IMG/VR virus record: IMGVR_UViG_3300028840_001832
Location: 1-41,936 of that record
DNA length: 41,936 bases
Strand: one strand, 5' to 3'
Origin: a virus
In this document: piece by piece, positions 1 through 26,544 of the stretch
Numbering within the stretch: position 1 is the first letter of the stretch
Layout of the letters: each line of letters opens with the position of its first letter
The notes under the pieces: model-generated
What the model saw: the letters and a program-made list of their open reading frames with translations, nothing else
What the model was told of the DNA's origin: nothing
The model's database searches: none
Position numbers and translations under genes: made by a program

Positions 1-51
1 ATGAAAAAAGCCCCTAAAGATAGATTAATACAAGTATATAAGGAGGATTAA
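1..51 (+). CDS. Short reading frame at window edge (possibly the end of a cut gene)
   Basis: The frame from base 1 encodes 16 residues (MKKAPKDRLIQVYKED) and stops at 49-51. Its last codons, AAG GAG GAT, form the ribosome binding site of the next gene. It may be the tail of a gene opened by the window edge or a genuine tiny ORF. If the window is circular, the gene at 41765 would instead stop at 15-17 in another frame. No function can be proposed. Confidence 0.3.
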   Translation: MKKAPKDRLIQVYKED

Positions 52-52
52 A

Positions 53-211
53 ATGGGAGATTATATTATTGAATGGGATTTTAGTAAACCAATGAAAATA
101 GAAGCAGGAAAAAATATTACTTTTATATTTCCCAAACCTAAAATAGAGCCTATAACATTAGATGGATATAAAATCATAGTTCCTACTAAGAAGAAAAGGA
201 GGTTGAAATGA
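53..211 (+). CDS. Small hypothetical protein (52 aa)
   Basis: It begins MGDYIIEWDFSKPMKIEAGK and ends in a basic tail (PTKKKRRLK). The start is supported by AAGGAGG at 40-46, six bases upstream. The stop overlaps the next start (ATGA at 208-211), so it is translationally coupled to the lipoprotein gene. Alternating hydrophobic and polar residues suggest a small beta-rich protein. It has no signal peptide or membrane segment. I do not recognise the family. Confidence 0.6.
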   Translation: MGDYIIEWDFSKPMKIEAGKNITFIFPKPKIEPITLDGYKIIVPTKKKRRLK

Positions 212-552
212 AAACATTATTTATATTAATACCATTATTTTTCTTTTCCTGTTCATTATTTGAGCCGGAAACTTATAAAGTAGAATATAAAATAACAGGT
301 ACAGCTTCCCTGGTAGACGTAACACTAAATAATGCTACTGGTGGAACTGAGCAGTTTGACAATGTGCTATTACCTAAAACCTATACGTACGATCCATTTG
401 AAGATTGGTTTCTGTATATATCAGCACAGAACCAGGGGACAAGTGGCAGCGTAACTGTTTCAATTTATGTTAATGATGATCTTAAAAAATCGTCTACAAG
501 TTCCGGAGCTTATGTAATAGCTACGGCATCTGATAGTTTAGATTTTGAATAA
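208..552 (+). CDS. Small lipoprotein, MmpS-like beta fold
   Basis: Residues 1-15 form a short signal peptide ending in a lipobox (LFFFSC), with Cys15 as the predicted lipidated residue, so the mature protein of about 100 residues should be membrane anchored and exported. The mature part is beta-rich, with the pattern EYKITGTASLVDVTLNNATG, a 'YISAQN' strand and 'SGSVTVSIYVND', as in MmpS-like or Ig-like bacterial lipoproteins. It is read from GGAGG at 199-203 and overlaps the upstream gene by ATGA. By analogy, phage-encoded lipoproteins in early operons often block superinfection, but nothing here proves that. The family assignment is from pattern memory and is moderate. Confidence 0.7.
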   Translation: MKTLFILIPLFFFSCSLFEPETYKVEYKITGTASLVDVTLNNATGGTEQFDNVLLPKTYTYDPFEDWFLYISAQNQGTSGSVTVSIYVNDDLKKSSTSSGAYVIATASDSLDFE

Positions 553-3283: not shown

Positions 3284-3832
3284 ATGAAAAAGTTAATAAT
3301 AATGCTTTTAATCGTTTTCACAGTCTCCGCAGATAAAGAAATAAAAAATCTTAAAAATAAAATAGACTATGACAGAATATATTTAGAAAGTTTAATTAAT
3401 AAATATCCTGTTATACATAAAAAAAGAATTTTAACCTGTATCCAAAAACATGCCTATATATATGACCATCCTATTGAGATGTTTGGTAGGCTTGCAGAGG
3501 TGGAAAGTGGTTTTAGGTACTGGGCAGAGAACACTAATACAGATTGTGTTGGCCTATATGGTATATCAACATACTGGTGGGCTCATTTGCCTTGGAAAAT
3601 ATGTAATTCTAAATATGCAGAATATCTAAATAAAAACAAAGGAACAAACTATAAAAAAGTTATGAAATTCATTGAGGCTAATACCGAAATGGGAGCTATA
3701 ATATTAAAGGAATATAAAGAAATGTATGGTGGTTATAGTAACGCACTCTATGTATATGGAGGTTGGCGCAAATATGAACACAAAACAAATGAAGCACAAA
3801 ATTATATTTCCAGGATATTATATGGCTATTAG
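3284..3832 (+). CDS. Secreted lysozyme-like (SLT-type) transglycosylase
   Basis: 182 residues with a clear signal peptide (MKKLIIMLLIVFTVSA, residues 1-16) and a lysozyme-like core: 'AEVESGF' with the probable catalytic Glu at 74 (or 72), then 'GLYGIS' and later 'YVYGGWRKY', the ES / GLMQ-like / AYN-like motif order of soluble lytic transglycosylases. It should cleave peptidoglycan in the periplasm after Sec export. A second, different lytic enzyme is present at 37392. Its early position suggests a role other than final lysis, or an accessory one. Start supported by GGAG at 3273-3276. Confidence 0.7.
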   Translation: MKKLIIMLLIVFTVSADKEIKNLKNKIDYDRIYLESLINKYPVIHKKRILTCIQKHAYIYDHPIEMFGRLAEVESGFRYWAENTNTDCVGLYGISTYWWAHLPWKICNSKYAEYLNKNKGTNYKKVMKFIEANTEMGAIILKEYKEMYGGYSNALYVYGGWRKYEHKTNEAQNYISRILYGY

Positions 3833-4157
3833 ATTAAAATATAAAAAAGATCTCAATAAATATTTAGGGTTTGGAGCTGAAAGGGCTTGTTATTATTTAA
3901 GGCGTGGTGTTATTGAAAACATTATTAATAGGCCACAAGAAACATATACTGAAGAAGAAATTGAAGCCTGGGCAAAAGAAAGTAAACGGTTAATTAAAAA
4001 TTATAAAATAAAAGCAGCTTTAATTCAGCGTAATAAATTATTAGCAGGTTCTAAAAGGGGAAGGATAAAACGAGATTGGCCACTTCCTAAGCCCTTACAA
4101 GATCTAGAGAATGCTTTGAAAAAAGCTAACTGGGATCCATTAAGGCTGCCTTCATGA
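3822..4157 (+). CDS. Hypothetical basic protein
   Basis: About 111 residues from the ATG at 3822, overlapping the end of the transglycosylase gene. It is strongly basic, with 'LIKNYKIKAALIQRNKLLAGSKRGRIKRDWPLPKP' in the second half, and has an N-terminal segment (LGFGAERACYYLRRGVIENII) that could be a small helix-turn-helix. An in-frame upstream ATG at 3726 would overlap the upstream gene by over 100 bases and is less likely. It is coupled to the downstream HNH gene. I do not recognise the family. Confidence 0.55.
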   Translation: MAIRLKYKKDLNKYLGFGAERACYYLRRGVIENIINRPQETYTEEEIEAWAKESKRLIKNYKIKAALIQRNKLLAGSKRGRIKRDWPLPKPLQDLENALKKANWDPLRLPS

Positions 4158-4459
4158 TTCCTAATTATCCCGAAAAGTTAATGTATCTGTACAAACACCA
4201 AAATCATAAATGTGATATATGTAATAGGATTATTTCTTTTAATCAATCACTAGACTTACATCATAAGTTTAGTAATACAAAATGGGGTAAAAAGAAATAT
4301 CCTTTATTCATTAATAGCCTTTTAAATCTATCATTAGTACATGGGGCCTGCCATTTAAATAAAGTTGGTAGGTTAAGGATAACAGATTATAACGCTAATC
4401 GTTATGAACTTTTTTTAAAGAGACATAAAAAAATTTCTGATTTTGTTAATTTTAATTGA
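4154..4459 (+). CDS. HNH endonuclease
   Basis: 101 residues with the HNH architecture: structural CDIC at residues 20-23, 'DLHHKF' with His36-His37, 'INSLLNLSLVHGACHLNK' supplying Asn58 and the C-terminal metal ligands (His63, Cys66, His67). The small stand-alone size fits either a homing-type nuclease or the HNH partner used by some phages in cos cleavage. TerL is far away (16.9 kb), so a packaging role is not indicated by context. It overlaps the upstream stop (ATGA), and the promoter of the next unit overlaps its last codons. Confidence 0.85.
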   Translation: MIPNYPEKLMYLYKHQNHKCDICNRIISFNQSLDLHHKFSNTKWGKKKYPLFINSLLNLSLVHGACHLNKVGRLRITDYNANRYELFLKRHKKISDFVNFN

Positions 4460-4485
4460 CAACTTAATGCTTGTTATTGTATAAT
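4456..4485 (+). promoter_or_regulatory. Sigma70-type promoter for a leaderless RHH gene
   Basis: TTGACA at 4456-4461 and TATAAT at 4480-4485 with an 18-base spacer, starting inside the last codons of the HNH gene. The ATG of the next gene is at 4494, about where transcription should begin, and no Shine-Dalgarno is present, so the transcript should be leaderless or nearly so. The -10 to start segment closely matches that at 38960-38976, in front of the other RHH gene. Confidence 0.75.
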
Positions 4486-4493
4486 TGTACATA

Positions 4494-4622
4494 ATGAAAA
4501 TACGTAGAAATATATCAATAAAAATGGAATTATGGAAAGCAGCTTTAAGGAAGGCTCGAGATTTGGAAAAGAGTTTATCACAAGTTATATCTGAGTTTTT
4601 AACAAAGTGGTTAGGATGGTAA
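4494..4622 (+). CDS. Ribbon-helix-helix DNA-binding protein (42 aa)
   Basis: The 42-residue product MKIRRNISIKMELWKAALRK... fits an Arc/CopG fold: a short basic strand (RRNISIKM), helix 1 (ELWKAALRKARDLE) and helix 2 (SLSQVISEFLTKWL) after a Ser turn. Such proteins bind operators as dimers and often repress their own promoter. It has its own promoter at 4456 and no ribosome binding site. It is the only gene on the transcript before the hairpin-rich region at 4652. A second RHH gene is at 38995 behind a similar promoter. Confidence 0.7.
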   Translation: MKIRRNISIKMELWKAALRKARDLEKSLSQVISEFLTKWLGW

Positions 4623-4651
4623 TGTTAGTTTTTAATACTCGGAAAATAGAT

Positions 4652-5063
4652 GGCTGGAGTCCCTCCCAAGATATGCTCCAGCCGTCCCGGTTTATTCAAG
4701 GTAGGATGAACACTTTTTCTTCAAAAATGAATACGCGGCCAGCCCTCCCCCGGAATCCTCCAAATATTTTTCCGGTGCTGGCTGCTTTGGCTTAAGCAAG
4801 GTTTTAGTAATTGCCATCTAGCTAATGGTTCATTATTAAAATTACAGTGGAAGTTTTGGGGGTACAAATTAGCCGCCACTTTAAAAAAGGCAAACCCCCG
4901 CCAGGCTTATCTATCTTATTCGGCAGGATGCATTTGCATTGGGTAGATAACAATAGGGCCTGACCGAGGCCCATTATCCATTAAATGACCATCAAAATAT
5001 ACCTGGTTAGTGGTCAGCTGGAAACAGTGCGGAAACGGTGGTCGGGTGTCCGGACTGGTACAG
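4652..5063 (+). ncRNA. Candidate structured non-coding RNA (hairpin array)
   Basis: No credible gene lies between 4623 and 5088, and the DNA is visibly more GC-rich than its surroundings. Successive helices can be drawn: 4652-4659/4676-4683 (8 bp), 4735-4743/4777-4785 (9 bp, one wobble) enclosing 4750-4755/4770-4775 (6 bp), 4858-4863/4894-4899 (6 bp), 4907-4915/4942-4950 (9 bp, one wobble) enclosing 4928-4931/4936-4939, 4956-4961/4967-4972 (GGGCCT/AGGCCC with a 5-base loop), 4986-4991/5011-5016 (TGACCA/TGGTCA), and 5025-5033/5049-5057 (8 pairs, one mismatch). It should be transcribed from the promoter at 4456. It may be a free RNA or a long leader of the gene at 5089. It matches no class I can name with confidence. 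Confidence 0.6.
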
Positions 5064-5088
5064 GGCACATTGATTTAAAGGAGGTTAA

Positions 5089-5349
5089 ATGAAAACATTA
5101 ATACAAGAAACTAAAGAAAAGGGGCTTGAAAGCCTTATGGGTAAAAAAGTAACCATATTCTGTTGTAGATATATCTATACAGGTGAATTGATAGGTATTG
5201 ATGAACAAAATATTTTACTTAAAAATCCAGCTATAGTTTATGAGACTGGGCCATTTGATAAGAAAGAATGGCAAGATTGCCAATCTTTAAATATTCCAGA
5301 ATGGTATATTGCAATTCAGAGCATAGAGAGTTATGGTATTCTTAAGTGA
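5089..5349 (+). CDS. Conserved-looking small protein, possible Sm-like barrel
   Basis: 86 residues. After a short helix comes 'MGKKVTIFCCRYIYTGELIGIDEQNILLKNPAIVYETGPF', a pattern of five short strands with the Sm-type 'Y.G.L.g.d...i.L.na' layout, then 'WYIAIQSIESYGILK'. An RNA- or DNA-binding Sm-like role is therefore possible but rests on strand pattern only. AAAGGAGG at 5078-5085 gives a strong start directly after the structured region. Its TGA stop overlaps a GTG that may start the first hexamer-array peptide. The same frame stays open beyond that TGA as far as 5616. Confidence 0.7.
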   Translation: MKTLIQETKEKGLESLMGKKVTIFCCRYIYTGELIGIDEQNILLKNPAIVYETGPFDKKEWQDCQSLNIPEWYIAIQSIESYGILK

Positions 5350-5513
5350 ATCATACTTCGAAATTCTGGTCTAGGGATAGGGTTTGGTTTTGGTCTGGGT
5401 CTGGGTCAAGGTCTAAGTCTGGGGCTGGGAATTGGTCTAGGGTTGGGACTGGGTCTGGGGCTTGGTCTTGGTGTTGGTCTGGGTCTAGGGCTAGGGCTAG
5501 GTCAAAGTATTAA
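5346..5513 (+). CDS. Trp/Ser/Arg/Gly-repeat peptide 1 (possible)
   Basis: A GTG overlapping the previous stop opens a 55-codon frame: (M)NHTSKFWSRDRVWFWSG..., then alternating Trp/Arg/Gly with Ser/Ala/Thr/Val, ending RARARSKY. Its first residues resemble those of the following frame (MKHTFKYW), so the two are a tandem duplication. There is no clear ribosome binding site, so translation would depend on coupling. Against coding in this frame, most base changes between hexamers alter the residues here, whereas the Gly-hydrophobic frame keeps its pattern. Confidence 0.35.
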   Translation: MNHTSKFWSRDRVWFWSGSGSRSKSGAGNWSRVGTGSGAWSWCWSGSRARARSKY

Positions 5514-5620
5514 AATGAAGCATACTTTTAAATATTGGGCTGGGTCAAGAACTTGGACTGGGTATTGGTCTAGGTCTAGGTCTTGGTCTAGGTCTGGGTC
5601 TGGGTCTGGGTCTGGGTAAA
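5368..5620 (+). repeat. Degenerate GGTCTG hexamer array in two blocks, G-quadruplex capable
   Basis: Block 1 (5368-5505) contains 23 consecutive hexamers of the form GGN-NTN (mostly GGTCTG, GGTCTA, GGGCTA). Block 2 (5537-5614) contains 13 more. The two blocks have matching flanks (CATACTT..AAA before, AAAGTATT..AA after), showing a tandem duplication. Block 2 ends with GGG at 5596, 5602, 5608 and 5614 separated by TCT, a textbook G3N3 quadruplex motif. Parts of block 1 (TCTAGGGCTAGGGCTAGG) look telomere-like. The G-rich strand is the coding strand. Confidence 0.85.
5515..5619 (+). CDS. Trp/Ser/Arg/Gly-repeat peptide 2 (possible)
   Basis: The ATG lies two bases after the stop of peptide 1 and opens 34 codons: MKHTFKYWAGSRTWTGYW, then alternating Ser with Arg, Trp or Gly, ending SGSGSGSG. 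It is in the frame of the gene at 5089, from which it is separated by a single TGA at 5347. Low complexity, high Trp/Arg/Gly content and the duplicated 'HT.K(F/Y)W' start are the only clues. It may be a small nucleic-acid- or membrane-interacting peptide, or not a protein at all. Confidence 0.35.
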   Translation: MKHTFKYWAGSRTWTGYWSRSRSWSRSGSGSGSG

Positions 5621-5629
5621 AGTATTTAA

Positions 5630-5713
5630 ATGATTAGTACAAAAGAAAGCATAAGGGCTGCAAGAGCCTATTTATATCTTAAAGGAGTGAGGTTTTGGAA
5701 GAAGAAGAAATAG
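5630..5713 (+). CDS. Very short reading frame after the hexamer array (27 aa)
   Basis: MISTKESIRAARAYLYLKGV and a basic end (RFWKKKK). It starts at the same place relative to the repeat flank (AAAGTATTTAA-ATG) as peptide 2 does, but without a ribosome binding site. Its codons LKGV carry the AAAGGAG used by the TTG start at 5695, so it may simply be leader sequence. Confidence 0.25.
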   Translation: MISTKESIRAARAYLYLKGVRFWKKKK

Positions 5714-5874
5714 ATTGTTTATTTGAAGGTCAATGTTTATCTGCATTGCATAAGAAAGACTTTGACCCTAAGATTGACTGTAAAGCTTGCAGACATAATA
5801 TAGAGTACAAAAAGATGTTTACTGATAAAATTGATTTAACGCCTATTGTAGAAAACAAAATAATTAATGAATAG
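5695..5874 (+). CDS. Small Cys-rich protein (TTG start)
   Basis: 59 residues, TTG start seven bases after AAAGGAG (5681-5687). The sequence holds two Cys pairs, DCLFEGQC near the N-terminus and DCKACRHN about 25 residues later, giving a likely zinc site. It overlaps the start of gmd (ATGAATAG), tying the sugar cassette to the preceding transcript. No family recognised. Confidence 0.6.
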
Positions 5875-6835
5875 AAAAGCTTTAATATTCGGGATAACCG
5901 GCCAGGATGGTTCGTATTTATCAGAGCTATTATTGTCTAAAAACTATGAAGTTCATGGCACTATCCGCAGAGCTTCAACTTTTAACACTGAAAGAATAGA
6001 CCACATATTTAATGATATTAAACTTTATTATTGTGATTTGTCTGACGGATTAAATATATTTGATATTATTAATGATATTAGACCACATGAAATTTATCAT
6101 TTAGGTGCACAATCTCATGTCTTAGTTTCTTTTAAATCTCCAGTATATACAACTAACATTAATTGTTTAGGAACTATCCAAATACTTGAAGCTATTAGAA
6201 AAGTGGATCCTTATATTAGATTTTATAATGCTGCATCAAGTGAAATGTTTGGCAAAGTCCTGGAAGTACCACAGACAGAAACTACACCTTTTAATCCTGT
6301 TTCCCCTTATGGTTGCTCTAAAGTATATTCTTATTATGTGACTAAAAATTACAGGGAAGCATATAATATTCATGCTAGTAATGGTATACTTTTTAATCAC
6401 GAATCACCACGCCGGGGTGGCACATTTGTAACACAGAAAATAGTTAAAGGAATAGCAAACATTGTAAAAGGCAAACAGGAATATTTAGAGCTTGGCAACT
6501 TACAAGCAAAAAGGGATTGGGGACATGCCAGGGATTATGTAAAGGCAATGTGGTTAATGCTACAACAAGATAAACCGGATGATTATGTAATTGCTATTGG
6601 AGAGAACCATACTGTAAATGAATTCTTAAATGTTGTTTTAACACTTGCCAGGTTAACAGATAAAAGAGAAAAAATAATAAAAATAAATCCTAAGTATTAT
6701 AGACCAAATGAAGTTGATGAACTTCTTGGGAATGCTACAAAGGCAAGGACTATTTTAGGGTGGAAACCTGAAGTTGATTTTATTTCATTAGCAGAAGAAA
6801 TGTGGAGCATGGCTTTAAATGGTCAAACTTATTAA
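5867..6835 (+). CDS. gmd: GDP-mannose 4,6-dehydratase
   Basis: 322 residues, full length for the family. NAD(P)-binding GITGQDG at 9-15, '[13 protein letters not shown]' (the Gmd-specific segment contacting nucleotide), 'AASSEMFGK' at 122-130, catalytic Tyr148-x3-Lys152 (YGCSK) and 'NHESPRRG' at 177-184, all characteristic of Gmd. It converts GDP-D-mannose to GDP-4-keto-6-deoxy-D-mannose in the cytosol, the common precursor of GDP-fucose, GDP-perosamine, GDP-rhamnose and GDP-colitose. It is first of three overlapping genes whose order (dehydratase, PLP enzyme, Fcl-like) points to colitose. The mannose precursor must come from the host, as no mannose genes are seen. Confidence 0.95.
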
Positions 6836-22382: not shown

Positions 22383-23195
22383 ATGGCTACAGCAGGCATT
22401 CCAAACTTAGGGCCGGCAAACATTGCTAGCTTAGAAAGTGAAGAAACAATAACACCGGCAAATGATGATTTAGTCCCTGTTATTGATGTTAGTGATAGTA
22501 ATAAGTTAAAAACTTCAACTGTTGCAAATGTTGGCGGCGGTGGTAGTGGAGATGTTACAGGCCCAGCAAGTTCTACAGACAATGCAATTGCTAGGTTTGA
22601 CGGTACAGGCGGTAAAACATTACAAAATGGATCTGCAACAGTTGATGATAATGGCAGTGTTAATGTTCCAACTGGACAGGCATATAAAATAAATAATACT
22701 GCTTTAGCATATACTGACATAACAAATTCTGTTGGTTCTTCATCTACTATAAGTGATAATGTTTTGCTTAAAGGAGATGGAGGCACAAGGGGGGCACAAG
22801 CTACTGGTACTACTGTAGATGATTCTAATAATGTAACCGCAGTCAACAACTTAACTGTAAATGCATTTATGGGATGTGATGCTGAGTATGATAATGGGAA
22901 TAGTGGTTCTACTAAGACAATAGATTGGAATAATGGTAATTATCAAAAAGTCACAATGACTGATGATTGTACTTTCACTTTTACTGCTCCTACAGGTAAA
23001 GTTGGGACTATGCGTCTAAAATTAATTCAAGATGGCACTGGTGAGCATGCAGCCACTCTTCCTGCAACTGTTCGTAGTGGTGGTGGATTTGCCCTTAATA
23101 CTTCCAATTCTGATGCTAATGAGATAGACTCAATAAAAATGGATTGGGATGGCACTAATTACGATATTTTCGCGTTGGATTATGACATAAAATAG
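22383..23195 (+). CDS. Fibre-like structural protein with 'GPASSTDNAIARFDGT' repeat motif
   Basis: 270 residues. An N-terminal domain is followed by a Gly linker (VGGGGSG) and 'DVTGPASSTDNAIARFDGTGG', a motif commonly found in phage and prophage tail-fibre or head-fibre proteins, then a beta-rich C-terminal domain ending 'DSIKMDWDGTNYDIFALDYDIK'. It probably forms a trimeric fibre. Its position among head genes suggests a head fibre rather than a tail fibre. Confidence 0.65.
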   Translation: MATAGIPNLGPANIASLESEETITPANDDLVPVIDVSDSNKLKTSTVANVGGGGSGDVTGPASSTDNAIARFDGTGGKTLQNGSATVDDNGSVNVPTGQAYKINNTALAYTDITNSVGSSSTISDNVLLKGDGGTRGAQATGTTVDDSNNVTAVNNLTVNAFMGCDAEYDNGNSGSTKTIDWNNGNYQKVTMTDDCTFTFTAPTGKVGTMRLKLIQDGTGEHAATLPATVRSGGGFALNTSNSDANEIDSIKMDWDGTNYDIFALDYDIK

Positions 23196-25539: not shown

Positions 25540-26544
25540 ATGTCTATAAAATATTCAGATTTCATAGATCCGGAAGTACTCGAAAAGATTATTGGTGCGG
25601 ATTATCAAAATGAAGCCAAAACCATTAATTCTGGTATTGTCCGCAGAGAAGGGGCACCTAACGAGTCCAGCCAGGTCGAATGGATAAAACAAACTATTTT
25701 CAGTACTGATGACACCGGACAAACAATCGGTGTTGATACTGAAATAGATCTTAAAAATAAAACTCAACTATCTTACGCATTGCCTATTGTATGGCGTGCT
25801 GATGGTGCTGAGCTTGATGATGTTTCAGAAGCTATCATGGCAAAACGTGGCCGGGAAGGCGCAGAAGCTGATGCAACTGCAAACCTTGCAAATGCTATTA
25901 GTGCAAAAGCGGCTCAAATGACCGACACTGTATCAATTAAAATTATTGATGGGTGTGGTGCCTTTCTAGTTACTGACGCCAATAACTATGTTAATGATAC
26001 AGGTTCTCAAGTTAGTTTAACTAAGCTTGAAGAAACCAGATCAACACGTGGCGAAAAAGGCGTTAACTTTGAAGGCGGTTTTTTAATTTGTAGAGGTGTT
26101 ATGTATCATAAACTGGCAGCTCTTGGATTAATTGCAGCTACTTCTAACACAATGGGTAATATGAAACAAGATGAAATTGTTAATACTGGCGTTGTAGGAA
26201 CTTTACTTGGAATGAATGTATTTCCAACAGATAAAATTGCAACTGTTTCCGGTTCAACAGATCATTATATTCATTTTATTGAACGTGGCGCATTACGGAT
26301 GTTAATGAGAGAATCTCTCAATATAGATCCTGTAATTAGGGCAACAAGATCTTTTAAAGATTCAATCAAATTCAAAGTTGCTCTTGGTGGAATGGTTGAC
26401 GGCCTTTCCTGGAGTGCTACAAAAGTTAATCCAGCGACTGTTACAAATACATCACTGGCAACTGGCACTAATTATGAACAAGCTGCAACGAACATCAAAA
26501 ATGTTCCTATGGCTGTTTATCGTTGTGCTGTTCCAACTTTCTAA
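25540..26544 (+). CDS. Major capsid protein
   Basis: 334 residues, first large gene after the scaffold. It begins 'MSIKYSDFIDPEVLEKIIGADYQ', has 'LPIVWRADGAELDDVSEAIMAKRGREG' (spine-helix region) and 'GTLLGMNVFPTDKIATVSGSTDHYIHFIERGALRMLMRESLNIDPVIRATRSFKDSIKFKVALGGMVDGLSW', a typical A-domain and C-terminal pattern of HK97-fold capsid proteins. Strong AGGAG start 10 bases after the scaffold. No delta-domain or protease is seen, which fits a separate scaffold. Confidence 0.85.
   Translation: MSIKYSDFIDPEVLEKIIGADYQNEAKTINSGIVRREGAPNESSQVEWIKQTIFSTDDTGQTIGVDTEIDLKNKTQLSYALPIVWRADGAELDDVSEAIMAKRGREGAEADATANLANAISAKAAQMTDTVSIKIIDGCGAFLVTDANNYVNDTGSQVSLTKLEETRSTRGEKGVNFEGGFLICRGVMYHKLAALGLIAATSNTMGNMKQDEIVNTGVVGTLLGMNVFPTDKIATVSGSTDHYIHFIERGALRMLMRESLNIDPVIRATRSFKDSIKFKVALGGMVDGLSWSATKVNPATVTNTSLATGTNYEQAATNIKNVPMAVYRCAVPTF

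Follow-up and report, generated by a model that had tools for sequence, protein, structure and literature searches.

A candidate phage RNA assembled from hairpin units with a recurring GGYUUA tail

Large structured RNAs have been described in phages and prophages, for instance GOLLD and ROOL, both of which have no known function (PMC12286853). GOLLD RNAs are composed of variable and conserved parts, and phage tRNAs are sometimes found in a linker (PMC12286853). A smaller kind of structured phage RNA is represented by the put RNAs, which are hairpins located downstream of early promoters, in one case about 270 nt downstream (PMC9378689). Here, we describe a locus in a 41,936-base IMG/VR virus record (the whole of which is called the window) that contains an element of about 330 nt. 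The element resembles GOLLD in being a large structured phage RNA, and a relative in a second phage (L069) carries a tRNA-like fold just past a conserved module, M2. However, many GOLLD members are longer than 800 nt, and no tRNA-like part was recognised in the window copy. Assembly into a homo-oligomeric nanocage is a further trait of GOLLD. ROOL RNAs are often located near tRNA islands, whereas no tRNA gene was found in the window. Neither the GOLLD nor the ROOL covariance model was matched by the window or by its relatives L012, L063 and L069, and the same holds for Rfam as a whole at gathering and relaxed thresholds (no match at E<=5 in the window region or at E<=2 in the L069 region). The first-pass annotation, which could not assign the RNA to a class, was right in this respect. 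The element shares with HK022 put the presence of hairpins downstream of a strong phage promoter at the head of an operon. In contrast to put, which has about 70 nt and two stem-loops, it comprises at least four hairpins and includes a conserved double-hairpin module; put was compared through the Rfam scan alone.

A GC-rich stretch that folds on one strand

The genome is densely coded, and the plus-strand open reading frames of at least 40 aa leave 4796-5088 as the longest uncovered stretch, followed by stretches of 145-174 bases. Thus, the region 4623-5088 is unusual. The sole longer plus-strand frame in it (4607-4795) and five other stop-to-stop frames gave no match in Pfam or PHROGs, which agrees with the initial view that the region holds no credible gene and speaks against a conserved protein encoded across it. 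The GC content of the region is 0.448 as compared to 0.331 for the genome, 0.268 for the left flank and 0.307 for the right flank, so that it is indeed GC-richer than both sides; only 0.1% of the 466-base windows across the genome are as GC-rich. The following features were assigned, all of them on the plus strand:

4456..4485, +, sigma-70 consensus promoter, TTGACA-18-TATAAT (12/12 match)
4494..4622, +, Arc-like ribbon-helix-helix (RHH) ORF of 42 aa (PHROG 6506 Arc-like repressor, E 6.5e-5)
4649..4694, +, hairpin unit 1, 12-bp stem 4649-4660/4675-4686 with tail CCGGUUUAU (weak match to the M1 model, 7.6 bits)
4735..4798, +, hairpin unit 2, termed M1, 9-bp outer stem 4735-4743/4777-4785 and inner stem 4750-4755/4770-4775 with tail UUUGGCUUA (three further copies)
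4800..4845 (approximate limits), +, imperfect AU-rich hairpin (MFE and centroid structures)
4858..4909, +, possible hairpin unit 3, GGGGGU...ACCCCC, then GGCUUA at 4904 (sequence and recurrence of GGYUUA)
4904..4972, +, M2, hairpin 4907-4950 with an internal hairpin, then the GGGCCU/AGGCCC hairpin 4956-4972 (copy in L069)
4986..5016, +, perfect 6-bp hairpin 3' of M2 (sequence)
5089..5349, +, gene for an Sm-fold protein, a neighbour judged to lie outside the RNA element (AlphaFold2/Foldseek)

The promoter at 4456 is as previously annotated, and the genome contains two 12/12 sigma-70 matches as compared to 0.15 expected. The ATG of the RHH ORF (4494) is located 9 nt past the end of the -10 box (4485), so near that the proposed leaderless translation of this gene is plausible. 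The perfect helices noted before (4652-4659/4676-4683, 4956-4961/4967-4972 and 4986-4991/5011-5016) are exact, and the two nested structures were also confirmed, one formed by the two stems of M1 and the other by the hairpin 4907-4950. No homologous copy with its stem was recognised for the AU-rich hairpin, the hairpin 4986..5016 was not seen in relatives, and the possible unit 3 rivals other pairings in the MFE structure.

When compared to dinucleotide shuffles, the plus strand of 4648-4976 has a folding energy of -109.3 kcal/mol (shuffle mean -90.5; z -4.2; none of 40 shuffles as low), a value that is somewhat flattered because the limits were picked after the structure had been seen. The minus strand of the same segment gave z +0.1. 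An RNA that contains G-U pairs would show such a difference between the strands, whereas a DNA palindrome would not. For the region as a whole, the excess is modest on the plus strand (z -1.8 for 4623-5088 and z -2.3 for 4652-5063) and about zero on the minus strand. The originally proposed extent, 4652-5063, folds modestly better than its shuffles, whereas the strong structure is narrower and covers about 4648-4976. The 3' part (4977-5088) shows no clear folding excess (z -0.8 for 4870-5070), and no homologue was recognised for the last 110 bases or so before the Sm-like gene. The modest value for the whole region and this 3' end are what would be expected of a non-functional relic or a GC-rich insertion structured by chance, a reading that is very improbable because of the covariation described below and since other phages carry homologous hairpins with compensatory changes and a conserved M2.

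Homologous hairpins in other phages

Using the terminase as bait, the contigs L012, L013 and L014 were identified. L012 is a 12-kb contig with a terminase of 62% identity, in which an HNH gene, a promoter, an RHH-sized ORF, a 283-base gene-free stretch and a different small gene follow each other; the ORF (54 aa) was assigned by position and length, without a match to an RHH family. A 60-base segment common to this gene-free stretch and the window has a local score of 45, the best of 300 shuffles reaching 39. Taken in full, the L012 region shows no folding excess over shuffles (z +0.24), and M1 is its sole module. A pattern built from the 60-base segment led to L069 and L063, which are identical across the 1,200 bases compared. 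There are three independent loci, and for two of them the phages concerned demonstrably swap DNA segments. Most of the L069 phage (46,109 bases) does not resemble the window, but the two have blocks of 52-555 bases with 89-97% identity in common, which places both phages in one exchanging group. Such segments occupy window positions 1-552, 2587-2743 and 22851-23039 and point to recent exchange. What looked like a gap of 2 kb at the end of the L069 phage is occupied by an open reading frame that continues beyond the contig edge.

The gene-free region of L069 (25,362-26,175 of the reversed contig) has a z of about -5 (-5.1) and contains two copies of the M1 hairpin and the 68-base block that constitutes M2. 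At 25,978-26,127 of the same contig, there is also a 150-nt tRNA-like fold (z -5.5) with a 7-bp acceptor stem, a D-arm with GG in the loop, a T-arm with a 7-nt loop and a three-hairpin stem in place of the anticodon arm; it was called neither by ARAGORN at default settings nor by Rfam.

Further searches outlined how far the element extends. The HNH protein and the protein encoded at 3726-4157 retrieved no IMG/VR relatives. A homologue of the RHH protein (57.5% identity) is present in L062/L014 with another gene directly after it; in the L014 genome, HNH, promoter and RHH are followed by this other gene at once, and the M1 model gives no match there. Patterns based on M2 found L063/L069 only in IMG/VR and nothing in genome_contigs. 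A loose pattern of the M1 tail gave 107 matches in 66 viral and 39 genome stretches; those outside the L063/L069 copies were judged to be chance matches, as only these copies have an 8-bp stem without G-U and the matching spacing. Neither 42 sources nor 39 whole records besides that of L063 contained another strong match to the M1 model. INPHARED and PLSDB gave no match, the hits of one search being 32-36 b with E of at least 0.05. Marsh is the presumed habitat of the IMG samples from which L011, L012 and L069 derive.

M1 is an irregular hairpin with four copies, one in the window (4735-4798), two in L069 and one in L012. The changes in its stem are compensatory and the tail UGYUUUGGYYUA is conserved. 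All 36 cells of the 9-bp outer stem are paired across the four aligned copies, and for four of the nine pairs there is a copy, or more than one, in which both partners are exchanged. When the partners were slid by 1-3 columns as a control, pairing was observed in just 17-56% of the cells. The covariation score was reached by 5 of 500 shuffles, a figure that is not a probability since the copies are few and related. Thus, the comparison of homologous loci that had been recommended revealed covarying pairs in the M1 stem.

M2 is a 68-nt double hairpin, of which 65 bases (96%) are identical between the window (4904-4971) and L069. The predicted fold is the same in both phages, and the paired differences (G-U to G-C, C-G to U-G and G-C to G-U) all keep the pairing. 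The near-identity of M2 may reflect recent transfer and not constraint, because two of the three loci sit in phages that exchange segments. The motif GGYUUA occurs after hairpins three times in the window (4640-4980; reached by 10 of 2000 shuffles) and four times in L069 (25,390-25,975; reached by 5 of 2000 shuffles), and two of these sites with different stems of their own are weak matches to the M1 model. This recurrence of a hairpin followed by GGYUUA makes the RNA look like a series of hairpin units with M2 as its last part. On this view, L012 would have one such unit, the window three and L069 four or more.

A separate RNA, a leader or a DNA element

Taken together, it is likely that the locus specifies a real structured RNA element, as judged by the fold energy, the strand asymmetry, the presence of its modules in two other phages and the covariation of one hairpin. 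The description of the region as a large structured RNA of unmatched class therefore stands with regard to fold, homologues and M1 covariation and has to be restricted to 4648-4976 with regard to the strong part. A separate, trans-acting RNA outside the RNA families described in Rfam, as tested, is the reading that we prefer, with a probability of roughly 0.55. Its status as a class and its function are provisional because only three independent loci are available.

The position of the element carries much of this preference. The window and the L069 phage each possess two 12/12 sigma-70 promoters on the RNA strand, located at matching places (4456 and 18659 in the window, 5052 and 24873 in the reversed L069 contig), namely between HNH and RHH and directly after the terminase. 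In the window and in L012, the RNA follows the first promoter and the RHH-type gene. In L069, it is found at 25.4-26.1 kb behind the second promoter and a gene for an SH3-domain protein, about 20 kb from the RHH locus of this phage and between different genes, while the L069 locus matching window 4154-5088 (HNH, 12/12 promoter and RHH) lacks the RNA. The next gene encodes the Sm-like protein in the window, an unrelated 59-aa unknown protein in L012 and a J-domain protein in L069. The variety of the next genes and the relocation in L069 speak for a trans-acting RNA rather than for a leader dedicated to one gene. Of the two options that had been left open at first, a free RNA or a long structured leader, the evidence thus leans towards the free RNA.

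The strongest competitor is a cis-acting leader near the start of a long operon, which would act on whichever genes follow, either by modifying RNA polymerase for processive antitermination, in the manner of HK022 put, or by operon control. We regard it as possible and clearly less probable than the trans-acting RNA. Its best argument is the constant position behind a strong promoter, because in all three loci a 12/12 promoter and one small gene precede the element and other same-strand genes follow it. A conserved next gene is not required by such a leader, and the put RNAs are likewise hairpins downstream of early promoters (PMC9378689). Moreover, the U-tract after the last M2 hairpin is absent in the window and no terminator-like site was detected before the next gene; hence, no 3' end is predicted in this phage and the RNA may continue into the next gene. 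However, the last M2 hairpin of L069 runs into U6 (TTTTTT) and looks like a terminator, the element is a repeat array several times as long as put, and no copy is located at the second 12/12 promoter of the window (18659), before the structural genes.

It is rather improbable that the element acts at the level of DNA, as inverted repeats that serve as recombination or mobile sequences, are swapped among co-occurring phages and have no RNA function. The M2 block, shared at 96% with abrupt ends, does resemble the other segments of 89-97% identity, and the units are repeats at differing genome positions. However, the folding excess in the window is confined to one strand (z -4.2 for the limits chosen afterwards versus +0.1), several stem changes lead to G-U pairs, which are of use to RNA and not to DNA, and the M1 copies have diverged and yet kept their stem.

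According to the preferred trans-acting reading, 4648-4976 would encode a noncoding RNA of repeated units, each consisting of an irregular hairpin and a GGYUUA-containing tail (commonly UUUGGYUUA), and the conserved double hairpin M2 would end this RNA. Transcription is predicted to start at the consensus sigma-70 promoter and to include the small gene in front. The RNA may act in trans as a multivalent molecule, its repeated tails serving as binding sites for a protein of the host or the phage or for a host RNA, and M2 would be the most constrained recognition part. Whether it represents a new modular class of phage RNA, with a varying number of units, an M2 cap, a mobile position and multivalent binding of a host factor in trans, can be stated only tentatively. 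If so, a smaller RNA of repeat units that can move to another genomic position would be a simpler object than GOLLD or ROOL for probing function, as the unit number and the conserved M2 can be altered one at a time. The element also marks a locus that can be checked in metatranscriptomes of the source habitat.

The Sm-fold neighbour and its repeat ORF

The suggestion that the gene following the RNA encodes an Sm-type barrel was borne out. The AlphaFold2 model (mean pLDDT 75.9) has one helix and five strands, and the best PDB matches obtained with Foldseek are Lsm and Sm proteins. By contrast, the implied link between this gene and the RNA is unsupported. With the Sm-like protein as bait, seven loci were found, none of which has the RNA upstream, and the Sm gene is accompanied by a repeat ORF in phages where the RNA was not found; the RNA is therefore not tied to it. 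A function of the RNA on behalf of the Sm protein was also rejected because the gene is not beside the RNA in the L012 or the L069 locus.

In the window, the Sm cassette (5089-5640) comprises the gene for the Sm-fold protein and an overlapping ORF of hexanucleotide repeats (TCTGGG/TCTTGG/TCTAGG), which encodes (S/W/R/G)S dipeptides; a parallel frame reads (GL)n. Another repeat ORF, a partial one, is located at 5527-5619. The cassette recurs in L003-L010, in phages whose remaining DNA has little in common with the window. Further downstream, at 5867-6835, the window contains a gene that resembles those for GDP-mannose 4,6-dehydratase; within the phage collection, it is closest to cyanophage genes, with about 64-67% DNA identity.
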